Of a stretch of DNA of 64,000 nucleotides, positions 22,726 through 30,066 are shown piece after piece. The DNA comes from Tabrizicola thermarum (GTDB lineage: Bacteria > Pseudomonadota > Alphaproteobacteria > Rhodobacterales > Rhodobacteraceae). Every line of letters begins with the position of its first letter. The stretch's first letter is position 1. The notes under the pieces are model-generated. The model was not told where the DNA came from. It searched no databases and worked only from the letters and a program-made list of their open reading frames with translations. The stretch covers positions 1-64,000 of the forward strand of contig NZ_QMJY01000076.1 of assembly GCF_003574395.1 (NCBI RefSeq), given 5' to 3'. The position numbers and the translations under genes were made by a program.

Positions 22726-24288
22726 ATGGACCTGATCGACGACGGCCCCGCGCCGCAGGGCAATCAGCCGGAATATACCGTGTCGGAGCTTTCCGGGGCG
22801 GTGAAGCGGGTGATCGAGGGGGAGTTCGGCCTTGTCCGCGTGCGCGGAGAGGTGGGGCGGGTGTCGCGGCCCTCGTCGGGGCATCTCTACTTCGACCTGA
22901 AGGATGATCGTGCGGTGATCGCGGCGGTCAGCTGGAAGGGGCAGGTCGCGCGGATGCAGGTGCGCCCCGAGGAGGGGATGGAGGTCGTGGCCACGGGGCG
23001 GATGACCACCTTTCCGGGGCAGTCGAAGTATCAGCTGATCGTCGAGGATGTGGCCCCAGCGGGGGCGGGTGCGCTGATGGCGATGCTGGAGAAGCGGAAG
23101 GCGGCGCTTCAGGCCGAAGGGCTGTTCGATCCCGCGCGGAAGAAGCCGATTCCCTATCTGCCGCGCGTGATCGGGGTGGTGACATCCCCGAGTGGGGCGG
23201 TGATCCGGGACATCCTGCATCGTCTGCGCGACCGGTTTCCCCGGCATGTGCTGATCTGGCCGGTGGCGGTGCAGGGGCAGGACTGTGCGGCGCAGGTGGC
23301 GGCGGCGATCCGGGGGTTCAACGCGATCGAGCCCGGCGGGCCGATCCCGCGGCCCGATGTGCTGATCGTCGCGCGCGGCGGCGGGAGTCTGGAGGACCTG
23401 TGGGGGTTCAACGAGGAGGTCGTGGTGCGCGCGGCGGCGGAGTCGCGCATCCCGCTGATCTCGGCCGTGGGGCATGAGACCGACGCCACGCTGATCGACC
23501 ATGCCGCCGACCTGCGGGCGCCCACGCCCACGGCGGCGGCGGAGCTGGCGGTGCCGGTGCGGCTGGAGCTTCTGGCGGCGCTGGACGCTCTGGGGGCGCG
23601 GCTGACGCGCGGGATCGGGCAGGGGCTGATCCTGCGGCGGCAGCGGCTGCGGGACCTGTCGCGCGCGCTGCCGAGGGTGGAGACGCTGGTCTCGACACCC
23701 CGGCAACGGCTGGACGCGGCGGGGCTGCGGCTGGGGGCGGGGCTGGGGCTGGCGGTGGCGCGGAAGCACCGCGACTACGACCGGGTGGCAGGGCGGCTGC
23801 AGCCGGCGGCGCTTCGGGGCCTGGTCGCGCGGCAGGCGGACCAGGTGGCGGTGAAGGGCGAGCGGTTGCGCCGGGCGATCCTGCTGCGGCTGGAGCGGCG
23901 GGGAGAGCGTCTGGAGGCGCTGGCGGCGCGGCTGGCCCCGGCCCTTGCGCGGATGCTGGGCGATGCGGGGCGGAAGGTGGCGGACGGGCGGCGGGACCTT
24001 GCGCGGCTTGCCGAGCGTCTGGAGGCAGCGCCCCGGCAGCAGCTTGCCCGGCTGGCGGACCGGCTGGAGGCGCTGGACCGGACCCGGGTGACGCTGGGCT
24101 ACCACGAGACCCTGAAGCGGGGCTATGCGGTGGTGCGGGGGGATGGGGCGGTCGTCACCTCGAAGGCGGGGGCGGAGAAGGCGGCGGCGCTGGAGATCGA
24201 GTTCCGGGATGGGCGGCTTTTGGTCGGGGGACGGGCCGGGAAGCGGACGAAGGGCGAAGGCGAGAGCGGGCAAGGCAGCCTGTTCTGA
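22726..24288 (+). CDS. xseA: Exodeoxyribonuclease VII large subunit
   Basis: Catalytic subunit of exonuclease VII, which degrades single-stranded DNA to oligonucleotides. The 520-residue protein has an N-terminal OB-fold (YTVSELSGAVKRVIEGEFG, then VRVRGEVGRVSRPSSGHLYF), the catalytic core with GVVTSPSGAVIRDI, IVARGGGSLEDLW and AVGHETDATLIDHAADLRAPTP split by short linkers, and a long Arg/Leu-rich helical region (about 280-460) that in this family forms the arm binding XseB. The tail contains the usual GYAVVRGDGAVV element. xseB is not adjacent. It is preceded by CGGAGGG and divergent from purD. Confidence 0.95.
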   Translation: MDLIDDGPAPQGNQPEYTVSELSGAVKRVIEGEFGLVRVRGEVGRVSRPSSGHLYFDLKDDRAVIAAVSWKGQVARMQVRPEEGMEVVATGRMTTFPGQSKYQLIVEDVAPAGAGALMAMLEKRKAALQAEGLFDPARKKPIPYLPRVIGVVTSPSGAVIRDILHRLRDRFPRHVLIWPVAVQGQDCAAQVAAAIRGFNAIEPGGPIPRPDVLIVARGGGSLEDLWGFNEEVVVRAAAESRIPLISAVGHETDATLIDHAADLRAPTPTAAAELAVPVRLELLAALDALGARLTRGIGQGLILRRQRLRDLSRALPRVETLVSTPRQRLDAAGLRLGAGLGLAVARKHRDYDRVAGRLQPAALRGLVARQADQVAVKGERLRRAILLRLERRGERLEALAARLAPALARMLGDAGRKVADGRRDLARLAERLEAAPRQQLARLADRLEALDRTRVTLGYHETLKRGYAVVRGDGAVVTSKAGAEKAAALEIEFRDGRLLVGGRAGKRTKGEGESGQGSLF

Positions 24289-24764
24289 CGGGGGCGCCCT
24301 GCGCGCGGTGCGGGGCCGTGCGCAGGTTTCTGGCTTGAGAACTCCGGGCAGCGCGCTTCGATACCGGCGGCGCGCGGGATGGATGTGTCTGCCTCCGGCG
24401 GGAGTATTTGGAAAAAGAGCAAGCCGGAGCGGTGTCTGTCGCCGTCGCAAGACCAGCGCAGTCGCGTGCCGAAGCAGCCGTCGCAGGTGACGTCTGGCGA
24501 GGGGCAAGGCAGGATCGGGGCAGCAGCCGGCTGCCGCGGTCGTGGCAGCTATGGCGCCAAGGGGACGGTTCGCCCTGGTCGTCGAAGCTGATCCGGTCGG
24601 CTTCGGCGCGCGAGGCACCCTTGCGGCATTGCGCGGCGTCGCGTCAGATCGCGCCGCCTTTGACGAAGGGTTCGACCTCTTGCTGGGTCATCGGGGGGCC
24701 GGACTGCGCCCCCGCGGGCCGCGCGAGGCACGGGATGTCAGAGCGGTCTGGAGCAGGCCCCGCA
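24289..24764. other. Gene-free region between xseA and the small secreted paralogues
   Basis: This 476-base stretch lies between convergent units. It contains the repeat-like element at 24391-24423. The rest is GC-rich and crossed by open frames on both strands, but none has a start signal or recognisable family, and the minus-strand frames are extensions or shadows. No terminator with a U-run was found. Confidence 0.55.
24391..24423 (+). repeat. Element resembling a dispersed Rhodobacteraceae intergenic sequence
   Basis: The stretch reads GCCTCCGGCGGGAGTATTTG and continues with an A-rich GAAAAAGAGCAAG tail. I recall similar sequences at gene ends in many genomes of this family. No second copy was noticed in this window, so the repeat status rests on memory and needs a genome search. 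Confidence 0.35.
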
Positions 24765-25154
24765 TCAGGTGCCGACCTCGGGGCCGGGGCAGGCGGGCGG
24801 ATCGGGCGTCTCGGCGACCGCCACGGGCTCGGTCCCGGGCGGGCTGGTGGTGTAGCTTGCGCTGAAGCCCCGTGCGCTGCGCGTGATGATCCAGCAGTCG
24901 GGATCCCTGTCGGTTTCGTATTTGAAGCAGATCGCCGGGCCGTCCTCGTACCAGTGGCCAGGCGTGCAGTCCCGGCCCGTGGCGGCCCAGCGGACCTTGC
25001 GGTTCGGCAGGTAGTGTTCGACGCCGTAGACCATCCCGAATTCGGACCAGGTCATGCTGCGGCCAAGGGTCAGGGCGTCGAACTCGGCGCCGGTAAGCGG
25101 GGGGTCGGCGAGGGCGGGGCCGGTGGCCGACAGAAGGGCGGCGAGCGCGCGCAT
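24765..25154 (-). CDS. Small secreted four-cysteine protein, paralogue 3 of 3
   Basis: Unrecognised family. The 129-residue precursor has a short Sec signal peptide (MRALAALLSATGPALADPP). The mature part shares a core with the next two genes: YGVEHYLPNRKVRWA, then Cys, GHWYE, ICFKYETD, CW, and the tail PPACPGPEVGT. The four cysteines occur at the same places in all three proteins, suggesting two disulfides in the periplasm. Identity is lowest of the three in the region after CW. It starts two bases after the stop of paralogue 2, so the three form one transcript, apparently with alkB. I chose ATG 25154 because the signal peptide begins there. Confidence 0.8.
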   Translation of the reverse strand: MRALAALLSATGPALADPPLTGAEFDALTLGRSMTWSEFGMVYGVEHYLPNRKVRWAATGRDCTPGHWYEDGPAICFKYETDRDPDCWIITRSARGFSASYTTSPPGTEPVAVAETPDPPACPGPEVGT

Positions 25155-25156
25155 GG

Positions 25157-25549
25157 TCAGACCCCCAGGACGGGGCCGGGGCAGGGCAGGGGCCTGTCGT
25201 CGGCCGAGACCTCGTGCAGTTCCTCGCCGGGCTGGGCATGGACCGACAGCGCCACCAGCGCGCCGTCCTTCAGCCAGAAGGTCCAGCAGGCCGGGGTGGG
25301 GTCGTATTCGTAGACAAAGCAGATGTGGGTGTCCTGCGGATACCAGCTGCCGTATTGGCATTCGTTGGGTGCGGTGCTCCAGCGGACCTTTCGGCCGGGC
25401 AGGTATTCCTCGATCCCGAAGACATGGTCGAACTGTCGGTAGGTGAGGGTCTTGCCGGTGACATGGGCCTCGAACGCCTCGGCGGTGATCGGGGGTTCGG
25501 CGGCGGCGAGCGCCGGCCAGAGCGCGCAGAGGAGTGCAAGGCGGCGCAT
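25157..25549 (-). CDS. Small secreted four-cysteine protein, paralogue 2 of 3
   Basis: Unrecognised family. The 130-residue precursor has a signal peptide (MRRLALLCALWPALAAAEPP). The mature core reads VFGIEEYLPGRKVRWS, Cys, YGSWYPQD, ICFVYEYDPTPACW, and ends with PLPCPGPVLGV. The central segment DPTPACW is identical to paralogue 1. The gene begins 4 bases after paralogue 1 ends and stops 2 bases before paralogue 3 begins. An ATG six codons upstream is possible but would precede the signal peptide with polar residues and overlap paralogue 1. Confidence 0.8.
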   Translation of the reverse strand: MRRLALLCALWPALAAAEPPITAEAFEAHVTGKTLTYRQFDHVFGIEEYLPGRKVRWSTAPNECQYGSWYPQDTHICFVYEYDPTPACWTFWLKDGALVALSVHAQPGEELHEVSADDRPLPCPGPVLGV

Positions 25550-25553
25550 CGGG

Positions 25554-25946
25554 TCAGGCGCCGACATCCGGCCCTGCGCAGGGCAGCGGGCCGCCGTCGC
25601 GGGAAGATTCCAGGATCTCCCACCCGCCGCCCTCGCCCATGAAGCGGCCCCGGATCTTGCCGTTGTCCAGGAAGTAGAGCCAGCAGGCGGGCGTCGGGTC
25701 GGTTTCGTATTCGAAGCAGATCTGGTCGTTCTTCTGGTACCAGACGCCGTAGATGCAGAGATCGCCCTCGAAGGCCCAGCGGACGCGGCGGTTGGGCAGA
25801 TATTCCTCGGTGCCGAAGAGGCCGCCGCCGTAGTCGTAGGTAATGGTCTGGTTCACTGTGGCGGCGTCGAATTCCTCGGCGTTCAGCGGGGTTTCGGCCA
25901 GGGCCGGGGTGGCAGCAAGGATCAGGGGCAGAAGGAAGGCACGCAT
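25554..25946 (-). CDS. Small secreted four-cysteine protein, paralogue 1 of 3
   Basis: Unrecognised family. The 130-residue precursor has a clear signal peptide (MRAFLLPLILAATPALA, cleavage about residue 17). The mature core reads LFGTEEYLPNRRVRWAFEG, Cys, YGVWYQKND, ICFEYETDPTPACW and ends PLPCAGPDVGA. It is the first of three near-equal-length tandem paralogues and lies 56 bases downstream of the AlkB-type hydroxylase gene on the same strand. Proteins of this pattern occur as uncharacterised genes in related bacteria to my recollection. No catalytic motif is seen; a small disulfide-stabilised periplasmic binding or protective protein is only a guess. Confidence 0.82.
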   Translation of the reverse strand: MRAFLLPLILAATPALAETPLNAEEFDAATVNQTITYDYGGGLFGTEEYLPNRRVRWAFEGDLCIYGVWYQKNDQICFEYETDPTPACWLYFLDNGKIRGRFMGEGGGWEILESSRDGGPLPCAGPDVGA

Positions 25947-26002
25947 CGGGGGCTCCGTTCGGTCTGGGTGCGAGAGTGCCAGAGGCCGGGCAGGTTGACC
26001 AG

Positions 26003-27130
26003 TCACGCGGGCGTGTCCGGCGGGGCGTCGGCGGGTCGGGTATTCCGCCATTGGGCGAGATGGGGGCCGATGGCGCGGCGCCAGGTGCGGGGGGCAAGGG
26101 CCAGGGCGCAGGCGAGGGGCAGGGGCCAGGGCAGGCGGGGGGCCTCGGTCGCGGGCGGCAGGTCCAGCGCGGGGAAGGCGCGCGCGGGGTGGACGTGGTG
26201 GTCGGAATGGCGCGGGGCGTTCAGCATCATGGCGGAGGTGAACCAATGCGCGGTGTTCCAGCTGTGGGCGGGGCCGACGGGCTCCAGCTTGCCGTCGGCG
26301 CGTCGGGCGCGGGTGAGGCCGTAGTGCTGGACGTAGTCGGACAGGAGGATCTGGCTTTGGGCGTGGAGTGCGAGGGCAGTCCAGGTCAGAAGGCCGGGAA
26401 GCCCCGCGATCAGGGCGGCGAGGGTCAGGGCCAGCGCGCTGATCCCGAGGTAGAGCGCGTAGGGATGCGGGCCGGAGTGGCCCTTGCGCCGCGCGGTTTC
26501 GGCCAGAAGGCCCTCGCGGAAGCTGCCGATCCAGGCACGGGGGGCAAAGCGGTAGAAGCTTTCGCCCGGTCGCGCGGTATTGGGATCGTCGCGGCTGGCG
26601 ACGCGGGCGTGGTGGACCAGCCGGTGGGCGCTGGCGTGCTGGCCGAAGAGGAGCCAGGCGTAGACAGCCGCACCAAGGCGGAACAGCCAGCGGTTGGGGC
26701 GGTGGATCAGCTCATGCGCCGCGGGGTGGGCGACCTGGCCCAGCCAGAAGCCGGTGGCGAGGAAGAGAAGGACCCGTTCCAGGCTAGTGAGTGCCGAGGG
26801 ACCGGCGATGGCCCAGGTGGCCAGGGGCAGGAGGACAAGCGCCCCGAGGCCCGCAGCCACCAGCAGGGCATTGGCGGCGGGAAACTCGGCATCCTCGGTC
26901 CGGCCCGGGGTGAGCGGGATCAGCTGGTCGAGGAGGAGGGTCAGCACTGCCATGTAAAGGAAGGCAGACCAGAGCCAGAGCCCGCCGAAGCCCGCGCCAA
27001 GCCCGATCAGCGCCACGGGGCCGAGGGCGGCGGTGGCGAAGGCGGCAAGGGGCAGGGGGCGGGCTTGCAACGGGGCCTGGTCCGGTTGAGGCTGGGGGAC
27101 GGAGACTGCGGAGGTGGCTATGCCGGACAA
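26003..27130 (-). CDS. alkB: Alkane 1-monooxygenase/AlkB-type membrane di-iron hydroxylase
   Basis: Integral-membrane non-haem di-iron enzyme that hydroxylates terminal methyl groups of alkanes or related chains. The His boxes are all present: HELIH (139-143), HxxxHH in AHRLVHHARV (H169, H173, H174), the YVQHYGL motif near 266-272 and RHSDHHVHP (307-315). Six or so hydrophobic segments surround them. Length (375) is near the usual 380-410. No rubredoxin or rubredoxin reductase gene is adjacent, so electrons must come from elsewhere. The frame opens at TTG 27130, overlapping the divergent neighbour's start; no ATG exists before residue 60, so the start is uncertain (another TTG at codon 21). 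Desaturase-like relatives cannot be excluded. Confidence 0.82.
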   Translation of the reverse strand: MSGIATSAVSVPQPQPDQAPLQARPLPLAAFATAALGPVALIGLGAGFGGLWLWSAFLYMAVLTLLLDQLIPLTPGRTEDAEFPAANALLVAAGLGALVLLPLATWAIAGPSALTSLERVLLFLATGFWLGQVAHPAAHELIHRPNRWLFRLGAAVYAWLLFGQHASAHRLVHHARVASRDDPNTARPGESFYRFAPRAWIGSFREGLLAETARRKGHSGPHPYALYLGISALALTLAALIAGLPGLLTWTALALHAQSQILLSDYVQHYGLTRARRADGKLEPVGPAHSWNTAHWFTSAMMLNAPRHSDHHVHPARAFPALDLPPATEAPRLPWPLPLACALALAPRTWRRAIGPHLAQWRNTRPADAPPDTPA

Positions 27131-27824
27131 GTTGGTCGAAACGCTGGCGCTTGCAACTGCCTTCTTGTCGCTGGCGTCGGCGCTGGCCTACTGGCTGGCC
27201 TTTGCCACGCGGGAGGTCAAGGGGATGGCGGGGGCGGTGGTCAAGACCGCCTCGACGGCGCTTATGGCCGGGCTGGCGCTGGCGATGTCGCCGGGCGGCT
27301 GGTTCTGGCTGATCCCCCTTGGCCTCGCGCTGGGGGCGCTGGGCGATCTGTTCCTGGCGCTGGGCGGGGTGCGGCGGTTCCTGGCCGGCGTCGCGGCCTT
27401 CGGGCTGGGGCATCTGGCCTATGCGGGGGGCTTTCTGTGGCGGTCGGGAGAGATCGGCCCTGACGGGGTGTCGTTGCCCGAGGGGATGGTGCTGGCGGGG
27501 CTTCTGGCGCTGCTTGGCTCGACCGAGGTCTGGCTGGCCCCGCGCACGGGCGCCTTGCGCCAGCCGGTGCGCGGCTATGTCGGGCTGATCGGCCTGATGG
27601 GGGTGTCGGCCCTTTTCCTGCCGGCGCATCCGGGGCAGGGGGTGCTGCGGCTGGGGGCGGGGCTGTTCATCCTGTCGGATCTGATGCTGGCGTTGCAGCT
27701 TTTCGTGGTGACGGCGCCCGCGACGCGGCGGGCTTTGGCCCTGGCGCTCTGGCCCGCCTACTGGGCCGGTCAGGCGCTGATCCTGCGGGGTGCGCTGGAC
27801 TACGCGGGCCTCGGTCCGGGCTGA
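27120..27824 (+). CDS. YhhN/TMEM86-family lysoplasmalogenase-like membrane protein
   Basis: The family hydrolyses the vinyl-ether bond of lysoplasmalogens in animals; bacterial members have little biochemical characterisation. The 234-residue protein has about eight hydrophobic segments and the family motifs ALGDLFLALGGVRRF and FGLGHLAYAGGF near residues 75-105, then LILSDLMLAL-like FILSDLMLALQLF near 186. I prefer ATG 27120, five bases after GGAGG, over the GTG at 27114. The start overlaps that of the divergent alkB frame by about 11 bases, so the two share a control region or one start is misplaced. Confidence 0.78.
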   Translation: MPDKLVETLALATAFLSLASALAYWLAFATREVKGMAGAVVKTASTALMAGLALAMSPGGWFWLIPLGLALGALGDLFLALGGVRRFLAGVAAFGLGHLAYAGGFLWRSGEIGPDGVSLPEGMVLAGLLALLGSTEVWLAPRTGALRQPVRGYVGLIGLMGVSALFLPAHPGQGVLRLGAGLFILSDLMLALQLFVVTAPATRRALALALWPAYWAGQALILRGALDYAGLGPG

Positions 27825-27885
27825 TGGCCTTCCAAAGACCGGGCAAAGCGACTAGGTGAAGGGAAACAGCCGGGAGAGCCTGCCC

Positions 27886-29070
27886 ATGTCGTTCTTCAAG
27901 AAGCTCAAGGAGCGGATGTTCCGGTCTTCGGACAAGATCGGTGAGGGGCTGGAGGCGCTGGTCGCCGAGGGCGCGGACGACCCGAAAGAGCCGCCGCGCG
28001 AGGTGCCCGACGCGGTGCCGGAACTGCCCGAGCCCCCGGCCCCCGAACTGCCCGAACCCGATCTGCCGGAAGTGCCGGTGCCGGAGCTGCCCGAGCCCGA
28101 TCTGCCCGGACCGGAGGAGCCGATGCCTTTCGCACGCGCGGCAACGGTCTCGGTTCCTTCCCCCGACCGCGACCCCGAACCGGCCAGGCCCGGCCTGCTG
28201 GGGCGGCTGTTCGGGCGGACGGTGGCGGATGAGCCCCGGCGCGTGCTGGACGACGCGATGCTGGAAAGCCTGGAGGAGCTTCTGATCCGGGCCGACATGG
28301 GCGTGGATACCGCCGTTCGGGTCACGGCAAACATCGCCGAGGGACGCTTTGGGCGGAAGGTCTCGACCCGCGAGTTGCGCGCGGCGCTGGCCTCGGAAGT
28401 GGCGCGGATCATGGAGCCGGTGGCGCGGCCGATGCCCTTGTATCCGCAGAAGCCGCAGGTCGTGCTGGTGGTGGGGGTGAACGGGTCGGGCAAGACGACC
28501 ACGATCGGCAAGCTGGCCAGCCAGTTCAAGGCCGCCGGCAAGAAGGTGGTGATCGCGGCGGGCGACACCTTCCGTGCGGCGGCGGTGGAACAGTTGCAGA
28601 TCTGGGGACAGCGCGCCGGGGTGCCGGTGCTGACCGCGCCGGAAGGGTCGGATCCGGCGAGCCTTGCCTTCGATGCGCTGACCAGGGCGCGGGCCGAGGG
28701 GGCGGACCTTCTGCTGATCGACACGGCGGGCAGGCTGCAGAACCGGCAGGACCTGATGGAGGAACTGGCCAAGATCGTGCGCGTCATCCGCAAGGTCGAT
28801 CCGACCGCGCCGCACAACACGCTGCTGGTGCTGGACGCGACCACGGGCCAGAACGCCGTGACGCAGGTCGAGATCTTCCGCAAGATCGCGGATGTCTCGG
28901 GTCTGGTGATGACCAAGCTGGACGGGACGGCCAAGGGCGGTGTGCTGGTGGCGCTGGCCGACAGGTTCGGTCTGCCGATCCATGCCATCGGCGTGGGCGA
29001 GCAGATCGACGATCTTGCACCCTTCGACCCCGACGACTTCGCCAGGGCGCTGGTCGGAGCCGAGGGATGA
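27886..29070 (+). CDS. ftsY: Signal recognition particle receptor FtsY
   Basis: Membrane-associated GTPase that docks the signal recognition particle for co-translational insertion of membrane proteins. The 394-residue protein begins MSFFKKLKERMFRSSDKI, a basic amphipathic membrane-binding start. An acidic, proline-rich stretch with repeated PELPEP/PDLPE units covers residues 43-80. The NG domain follows: helical N domain (about 105-180), P-loop GVNGSGKTT (197-205), the DTFRAAAVEQL motif, DTAGRLQNRQDLMEEL and TKLDGTAKGG. I chose ATG 27886 (after CGGGAGAG) over an upstream frame start. The stop overlaps the start of a 45-codon ORF. Confidence 0.96.
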   Translation: MSFFKKLKERMFRSSDKIGEGLEALVAEGADDPKEPPREVPDAVPELPEPPAPELPEPDLPEVPVPELPEPDLPGPEEPMPFARAATVSVPSPDRDPEPARPGLLGRLFGRTVADEPRRVLDDAMLESLEELLIRADMGVDTAVRVTANIAEGRFGRKVSTRELRAALASEVARIMEPVARPMPLYPQKPQVVLVVGVNGSGKTTTIGKLASQFKAAGKKVVIAAGDTFRAAAVEQLQIWGQRAGVPVLTAPEGSDPASLAFDALTRARAEGADLLLIDTAGRLQNRQDLMEELAKIVRVIRKVDPTAPHNTLLVLDATTGQNAVTQVEIFRKIADVSGLVMTKLDGTAKGGVLVALADRFGLPIHAIGVGEQIDDLAPFDPDDFARALVGAEG

Positions 29071-29204
29071 TCCGCGCGGGTCTTCTGACTTTGGCGCTGG
29101 CCGGTCGGGCGCCGAGCGGGGGGGCGGACAATCTGGCAGAGGCTGCCCCCCTGTTGCAGGGCGTCGTGCTGGATGTGGACTGGACACATTCCGATGCGCC
29201 GTGA
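29067..29204 (+). CDS. 45-codon ORF between ftsY and a secreted protein gene, remnant-like
   Basis: An ATG overlaps the ftsY stop (ATGA, 29067-29070) and opens a 45-residue frame ending at 29204, overlapping the start of the next gene by 11 bases. The N-terminus is signal-peptide-like (MIRAGLLTLALAGRAP) and the last residues, LLQGVVLDVDW, match LFSGAVLAVDW from the C-terminus of the following protein at 7 of 11 positions. It looks like a shortened paralogue with signal and tail kept and middle lost, or a genuine small protein coupled to ftsY. Too short for confident calling. Confidence 0.45.
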   Translation: MIRAGLLTLALAGRAPSGGADNLAEAAPLLQGVVLDVDWTHSDAP

Positions 29205-30066
29205 ACTGGGCCTTGTCCTTGCGCTTTTGTGCGGGCCGGTCATGGCCGAACCGGCCGCTTGCCCGCAGCTTCTGGCCGCGCTGGAAAGCGCGACCGGCAC
29301 CCGCATCACGGCACCGCCATCGGGGACGGAAGACGGCTGGTGCGTCTTCGACCGGGCGGTGCTGAAGGCTGACGGGGCGCCCGATCTGGTGGCCGAACGG
29401 CTGAGACTGCGCGGCGACCTGGACGAGGGTGCGCTGGTGAGCCTTGCGGTCAGGGCGGGTGGCGTCCGCGTCTCGCCCGGCCTCGGGCAGCGCGACCTGG
29501 ACCCGGTGCTGCGCGAGGCTCTGCGCTTGCAGACGGCCGAGGTGGCCCTTGACGCGACGGTCGGGCCGGAGGGAATCGCGCTGCGCGATGGGGTGGTGCG
29601 GCTGTCGGGCGGCTCGGAGCTGGCGGTCGCGGCGGATATCGCCGGGGTGGGGATCTCGGCGGGGTCGCTGATGCTGGGGCGGCTGACCTGGGCGAGGCTG
29701 GACTGGCGCAACGACGGCAAGCTGCTGCGTCCGGTGCTGCAAGCCTGGGGCGAGGGTCTGGCCGACGGCGCGGCGCGCGGGGCGGCGGCGATCGACGCAA
29801 GCCGGGCGACGCTGCGGCAGATCGTCGGCAACCTGCCCGAGGCCCTTGTGCCCGAGGACGGGGCGGGGCAGCTGAAGCGGCTGATCGACGCGCTGCCGCA
29901 GGGTCGGGGGCGGCTTGTGCTGGAGCTGTCGCGGCCCGGAGGGATCGGCGCGGCAGAGCTGGGGGTTGCGGCGCTGTCCCGGGACCCGCTTGGCCCCGAA
30001 GCGCTGGCGCGGCTGTTCTCTGGCGCGGTGCTGGCGGTGGACTGGCAGCCGGGACTGGCCCCTTGA
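29194..30066 (+). CDS. Secreted protein of unknown function
   Basis: Not recognised. The 290-residue precursor starts MRRELGLVLALLCGPVMAEP, a Sec signal peptide with cleavage near residue 18. The mature protein has two Cys close to the N-terminus (ACPQLL and DGWCVFD), is dominated by alternating hydrophobic and polar residues suggestive of a beta-rich fold with lipid-transfer-like repeats (LRLQTAEVALDATVGPEGI), and ends ARLFSGAVLAVDWQPGLAP. It is flanked by ftsY and an EamA transporter with overlapping codons, so it belongs to the ftsY transcription unit. An envelope role is inferred only from the signal peptide. Confidence 0.75.
   Translation: MRRELGLVLALLCGPVMAEPAACPQLLAALESATGTRITAPPSGTEDGWCVFDRAVLKADGAPDLVAERLRLRGDLDEGALVSLAVRAGGVRVSPGLGQRDLDPVLREALRLQTAEVALDATVGPEGIALRDGVVRLSGGSELAVAADIAGVGISAGSLMLGRLTWARLDWRNDGKLLRPVLQAWGEGLADGAARGAAAIDASRATLRQIVGNLPEALVPEDGAGQLKRLIDALPQGRGRLVLELSRPGGIGAAELGVAALSRDPLGPEALARLFSGAVLAVDWQPGLAP

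Follow-up and report, generated by a model that had tools for sequence, protein, structure and literature searches.

Gene organization of the locus

The window, i.e. the whole stretch of 64,000 nucleotides of Tabrizicola thermarum DNA analysed here, contains on its minus strand a gene for an AlkB-like membrane hydroxylase of the FA_desaturase superfamily (26003..27130; Pfam PF00487, 4.4e-26), the start codon of which is uncertain. The same strand carries three paralogous genes encoding small secreted proteins: paralogue A (25554..25946, 130 aa, four cysteines), which is the first and most conserved copy, paralogue B (25157..25549, 130 aa) and paralogue C (24765..25154, 129 aa). The tandem array 3' of the AlkB-like gene described in the earlier note was thus borne out, its coordinates and protein lengths included, with gaps of 56, 4 and 2 bp. 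A signal-like N-terminal stretch can be recognized by eye in A, B and C (...TPALA-E, ...ALAAA-E and ...GPALA-D, respectively), which supports the proposed signal-peptide and periplasmic nature of the three products. The tight packing on one strand was confirmed as well. As to the motifs that the proteins had been said to share, ICFxYE, CW, PxxCxGPxxG and the four cysteines at fixed places stood, but EEYLP is absent from C, which has EHYLP, and the consensus across the three copies is E[EH]YLPxRxVRW.

A pattern scan of the 56-bp intergenic stretch between alkB and A (25947..26002, minus strand) detected no σ70-like promoter or terminator pattern, a result which is uninformative in itself. The packing and the absence of such patterns between the genes are compatible with co-transcription of alkB with A, B and C.

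The array is flanked by xseA, encoding the exonuclease VII large subunit (22726..24288, plus strand; assigned by Pfam PF02601, 2.3e-100, and by synteny), which is the convergent flank of a conserved locus. On the other side, a YhhN-family gene (27114..27824, plus strand; PF07947, 2.8e-31), which is divergently oriented to alkB and often missing in relatives, is followed by ftsY (27856..29070, plus strand; Pfam SRP54, 7.8e-74), the other flank of the conserved locus. The gene order in the loci of named genomes is purD - xseA (convergent) - array - alkB-like - (yhhN) - ftsY. The gene after ftsY (29173-30066, plus strand) is represented by two tandem paralogues in several relatives (e.g. L007, L009 and L024).

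Between C and xseA we found the remnant of a fourth copy that is absent from the earlier note (about 24465..24736, minus strand; tblastn down to 4e-16, blastn 1e-21). Its pieces, PPMTQQEVEPFVKG, AI*RDAAQCRKGASRAEADRISFDDQGEPSPW..HDRGS and CPSPDVTCDGCFGT, lie in two frames and match paralogue type D, which in relatives is the last copy before xseA. The remnant has an in-frame TGA (24644-24646), a deletion of ~21 residues, a frameshift before the CxGxFG tail and lost cysteine codons, and it is therefore a pseudogene.

The AlkB-like protein

The AlkB-like protein showed significant similarity to the alkane 1-monooxygenase AlkB of known structure (FtAlkB; PDB 8f6t, 1.5e-30; 8sbb, 1.2e-27), and all nine iron-ligand histidines are present by motif (HELIHR, AHRLVHH, DYVQHYG and RHSDHH). 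In contrast to FtAlkB, the protein has Gln at the position of Glu271 (by alignment; the chain numbering is offset by three) and Asp in place of Asn three residues earlier, so that SDYVQHYG replaces NYxEHYG and the Fe2-ligand glutamate of the latter motif is missing. Both replacements occur in 60/60 relatives at the locus (DY[VIL]QHYG). Glu271 of FtAlkB is a ligand of Fe2 at a distance of 3.2 Å from the methyl group of the substrate (PMC10113152), and a conserved glutamate close to an iron was also described in a second AlkB structure paper (PMC10110569). The change of E to Q is not unique to this subfamily, since it is also found in a divergent Rhodococcus homologue (NYLQHYG). Plasmid matches with the look of a xylene monooxygenase (Hydrocarboniclastica, Polaromonas) keep NYMEHYG and do not have Gln; a xylene-monooxygenase-like identity was rejected.

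The missing rubredoxin genes, pointed out previously for the cluster, are missing from the whole assembly (99.98% complete), in which the PF00301 search gave no match while the control genomes were positive; rubredoxin was not found in 89/100 family genomes either. Judged by its motifs, the AlkB-like gene is a member of a divergent subfamily and not a canonical alkB, and sequence alone does not justify the label 'alkane hydroxylase'. Such genes, which lack the iron-ligand Glu and usually reside in genomes without rubredoxin, should not be taken as a sign of alkane degradation, and this is relevant to surveys that use alkB as a marker of oil degradation. In total, five FA_desaturase proteins are encoded in the genome of T. 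thermarum. Contig C73 of this genome carries a second AlkB-like gene (L102, about 25676-26353), which is canonical (NYIEHYG), shares 33% identity with the window protein and adjoins a mutY-like ORF.

Distribution of the X family

The Rhodobacteraceae proteins homologous to A, B and C are referred to here as family X. In the 3.65-Mb assembly of T. thermarum itself, the three proteins were retrieved with E-values of 1.4e-92, 1e-32 and 4e-27 and no further homologue rose above noise. When 296 Rhodobacteraceae genomes, nearly all of different genera, were searched with an A-B-C profile, at least one copy of X was present in 241/296 genomes (216/261 among those of good quality). X is usually single-copy, and the copy number ranges from 1 to 8. 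Given its absence from the 55/296 genomes that had no match, X is not essential family-wide. In an order-level sample, X was found in 82/101 genomes, all 101 of the same family, and in a class-level sample in 9/289 genomes, four of which belong to the same family while the matches in the other five were weak (best 3.6e-8). A single match was obtained with A among 72,556 plasmids, on a 1.58-Mb replicon of Pseudorhodobacter turbinis, where it adjoins an alkB-like gene. Because of this distribution in the family, order, class and plasmid samples, X is essentially a chromosomal trait of Rhodobacteraceae.

Searches of A, B and C against Pfam, NCBIfam and PHROG, as well as a Pfam search with 98 X homologues, gave chance-level matches only, with no lipocalin profile at E 0.1 for the homologues, and a search of PDB sequences with the 98-sequence profile returned nothing below E 0.6. 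The distant alphaproteobacterial homologues (CFxYxGxxxxCW proteins) matched no named family either; one of them gave a sub-threshold match to Lipocalin_4 (E 0.043). No literature on the family was found in a limited search. X is a real, undescribed protein family: ~80% of the genera in a large and well studied family carry at one fixed site a small secreted protein for which the searched libraries gave no named family. The strains with a single copy would allow a direct test of its function.

Age and divergence of the paralogues

In a tree of 166 X sequences, A, B, C and D formed separate clades, each of them found again from genome to genome with the order of the copies unchanged. Clade A comprised 20 loci (support 83), clade B 20 loci (support 70) and clade C 11 loci (support 86; the nearest five relatives of the window C, support 96), and the D type was represented by 18 of the 19 sequences in a single clade (support 100). 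The array is thus older than these genera, and a reduced set of it is present in the window. Rough NG86 estimates of dN/dS against relatives were 0.09-0.28 for A, 0.16-0.72 for B and 0.22-0.68 for C, where the more distant pairs used for B and C may include some that are not truly orthologous; A is 92% identical to the copy in locus L007, with dN/dS of 0.09. The three copies are mostly under purifying selection.

The suggestion that the array arose by 'simply local gene amplification' did not hold in the face of these old, well separated orthologous groups, and recent tandem amplification was rejected on account of the ancient, separate clades in the tree. A neutral or dosage-type amplification, with one function for all copies and no special meaning of copy number, would be in agreement with the wide range of copy numbers and with the decay of D in the window. 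However, the position-specific clades are common to many genomes, A, B and C share no more than 38-46% identity (A/B 46%, A/C 40%), and dN/dS stays below 1 in all cases, with low values for A, and we therefore consider this explanation very unlikely. The largest array seen, with eight copies of X, occurs in genome G022 (L099, 3432-6807); the alkB-like gene beside it matches in two overlapping pieces, possibly owing to a frameshift.

Association of X with the AlkB-like gene

The recurrence of alkB with at least one paralogue in other genomes, which the earlier note had proposed to check, was confirmed across the family, both in the Rhodobacteraceae loci and in the counts from 296 genomes: both genes were found in 135 genomes, X only in 106, alkB of the same type only in 17 and neither in 38. 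The alkB class was set here by an E-value cut of 1e-60, by which a few fragmented genes were misfiled (e.g. in G216). The naive odds ratio of co-occurrence, not corrected for kinship, was 2.8 (p 9e-4). Co-occurrence of the two genes is not obligatory. In all of 20 regions read from genomes that were selected because they contain X and lack a strong match to this alkB, X was located at the xseA and/or ftsY locus without the alkB gene, although one region (L065) has an alkB-like stretch of 39% identity. In nearly all of 15 regions from genomes with alkB and no X, alkB adjoins ftsY and/or xseA. The presence or absence of alkB changed state at least 11 times on the X tree (a quick tree with a sample enriched for alkB-lacking genomes).

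These data bear on the proposal that the X proteins act in the periplasm as accessories dedicated to the AlkB-like hydroxylase, serving in substrate capture, delivery or protection. The same-strand gene pair with its short gap is conserved in many genera, nearly every multi-copy array that was read adjoins an alkB of the window type, and the odds ratio points in the same direction. Nevertheless, 106 of the 241 X-positive genomes have no alkB of this type, X being intact at its old locus in those that were read, and the 17 genomes with the reverse combination and the repeated changes of the alkB state argue against a dedicated function as well. The pairing is explained by the long residence of both genes at one locus. 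The alkB-accessory idea is thus weakened, and we regard it as distinctly unlikely. X and alkB are old co-residents that were lost separately, and their pair is real and conserved but not obligatory. Where both genes survive, they are probably co-transcribed, and where alkB has been lost, X would have to be expressed alone.

Predicted structure and possible function of X

An AlphaFold2 model of the mature part of B (25160-25492) was obtained with a mean pLDDT of 92 and pTM of 0.84. It consists of an N-terminal helix and eight successive strands forming a meander, with low confidence only at the last residues. No match of the model in the PDB reached E 0.001 in Foldseek. The best matches, all with E > 0.001 and TM ~0.5-0.6, were potempin E and TP0435, followed by lipocalins and FABPs, and they support a loose resemblance of the modelled fold to the lipocalin-like class by shape, not membership of it. 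TP0435 (Tp17) of Treponema pallidum (PDB 4u3q) is a bacterial protein of similarly small size, and its strand meander is comparable to that modelled for X (TMq 0.56-0.59 across 96-101 columns). An identity of 10-11% and E of 0.09-0.13 do not establish homology, however, and X differs in its four invariant cysteines and N-terminal helix. The meander of eight strands predicted for X loosely resembles the up-and-down fold of the lipocalins and FABPs (calycins). In contrast to the lipocalins, X is shorter, its G-x-W lies in strand 4 and not at the N-terminus, and neither A, B and C nor their homologues gave a Pfam lipocalin match.

The alignment of 98 mature X sequences showed that all four cysteines are invariant, as is the glycine three residues after Cys1. 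The cysteines probably form two disulfides. Since it is mainly Cys2 and Cys3 that are retained in distant homologues from outside the family, this co-loss makes the pairs Cys2-Cys3 and Cys1-Cys4 the most likely arrangement. At the C-terminus, 159/166 proteins end in G[VA], most commonly in GPDVGV (e.g. window 24768-24785, minus strand). The tail is nearly invariant and yet modelled as disordered, which suggests that CxGP[DE]VGV may be a contact site.

The similarity to potempin E of Tannerella forsythia (PDB 8ehc/8ehd), a small barrel, as X may be, raises the alternative that the X proteins are compact barrels which are secreted to inhibit proteases or cell-wall hydrolases, the array being diversified to match different enzymes. 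Potempin E was the best Foldseek match by E-value (0.019-0.058), the proteins are small, four-cysteine and tandemly duplicated, B and C evolve faster, and the conserved tail modelled as disordered could be the contact segment. However, the fold match between X and potempin E is weak (TM 0.48, 9-11% identity) and does not reach significance, no protease or hydrolase adjoins the locus, and the tail shows hardly any variation. Inhibition is therefore an unlikely function of X. A more speculative proposal starts from the AlkB-like enzyme, which, with Gln for the iron-binding Glu and no rubredoxin, might be a new hydroxylase or desaturase of envelope lipids. The X proteins would serve it in the periplasm as carriers or as binders of its product and would dock via CxGP[DE]VGV, and in strains without alkB they would serve another enzyme with the same ligand. 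We consider this highly improbable.

As a whole, the data are best read, with a probability of roughly 0.5, as indicating that X is a periplasmic lipocalin-like binding protein which is not dedicated to the AlkB-like hydroxylase. X would be exported, as its signal-like N-terminus implies, to yield a mature protein of ~110 residues, predicted to fold into the N-terminal helix and eight-strand lipocalin-like meander. In the periplasm it may bind an envelope ligand, be it a protein or a small amphipathic compound, probably with the near-invariant tail as a site of contact. Counted against binding are the conserved core aromatics (W, F, Y), which could fill the barrel. In the clade to which the window genome belongs, the ancestor would have had an array of about five copies that diverged and were each kept, presumably widening the specificity, and in the window this array would have been reduced to A, B and C by the decay of D and the loss of any further copy. 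X would probably be co-transcribed with the divergent AlkB-like gene where that gene is present, yet act independently of it. In genome G055, a diverged X homologue is located across purD (L130, 1486-2007, minus strand), and a second paralogous site thus exists in some genomes.
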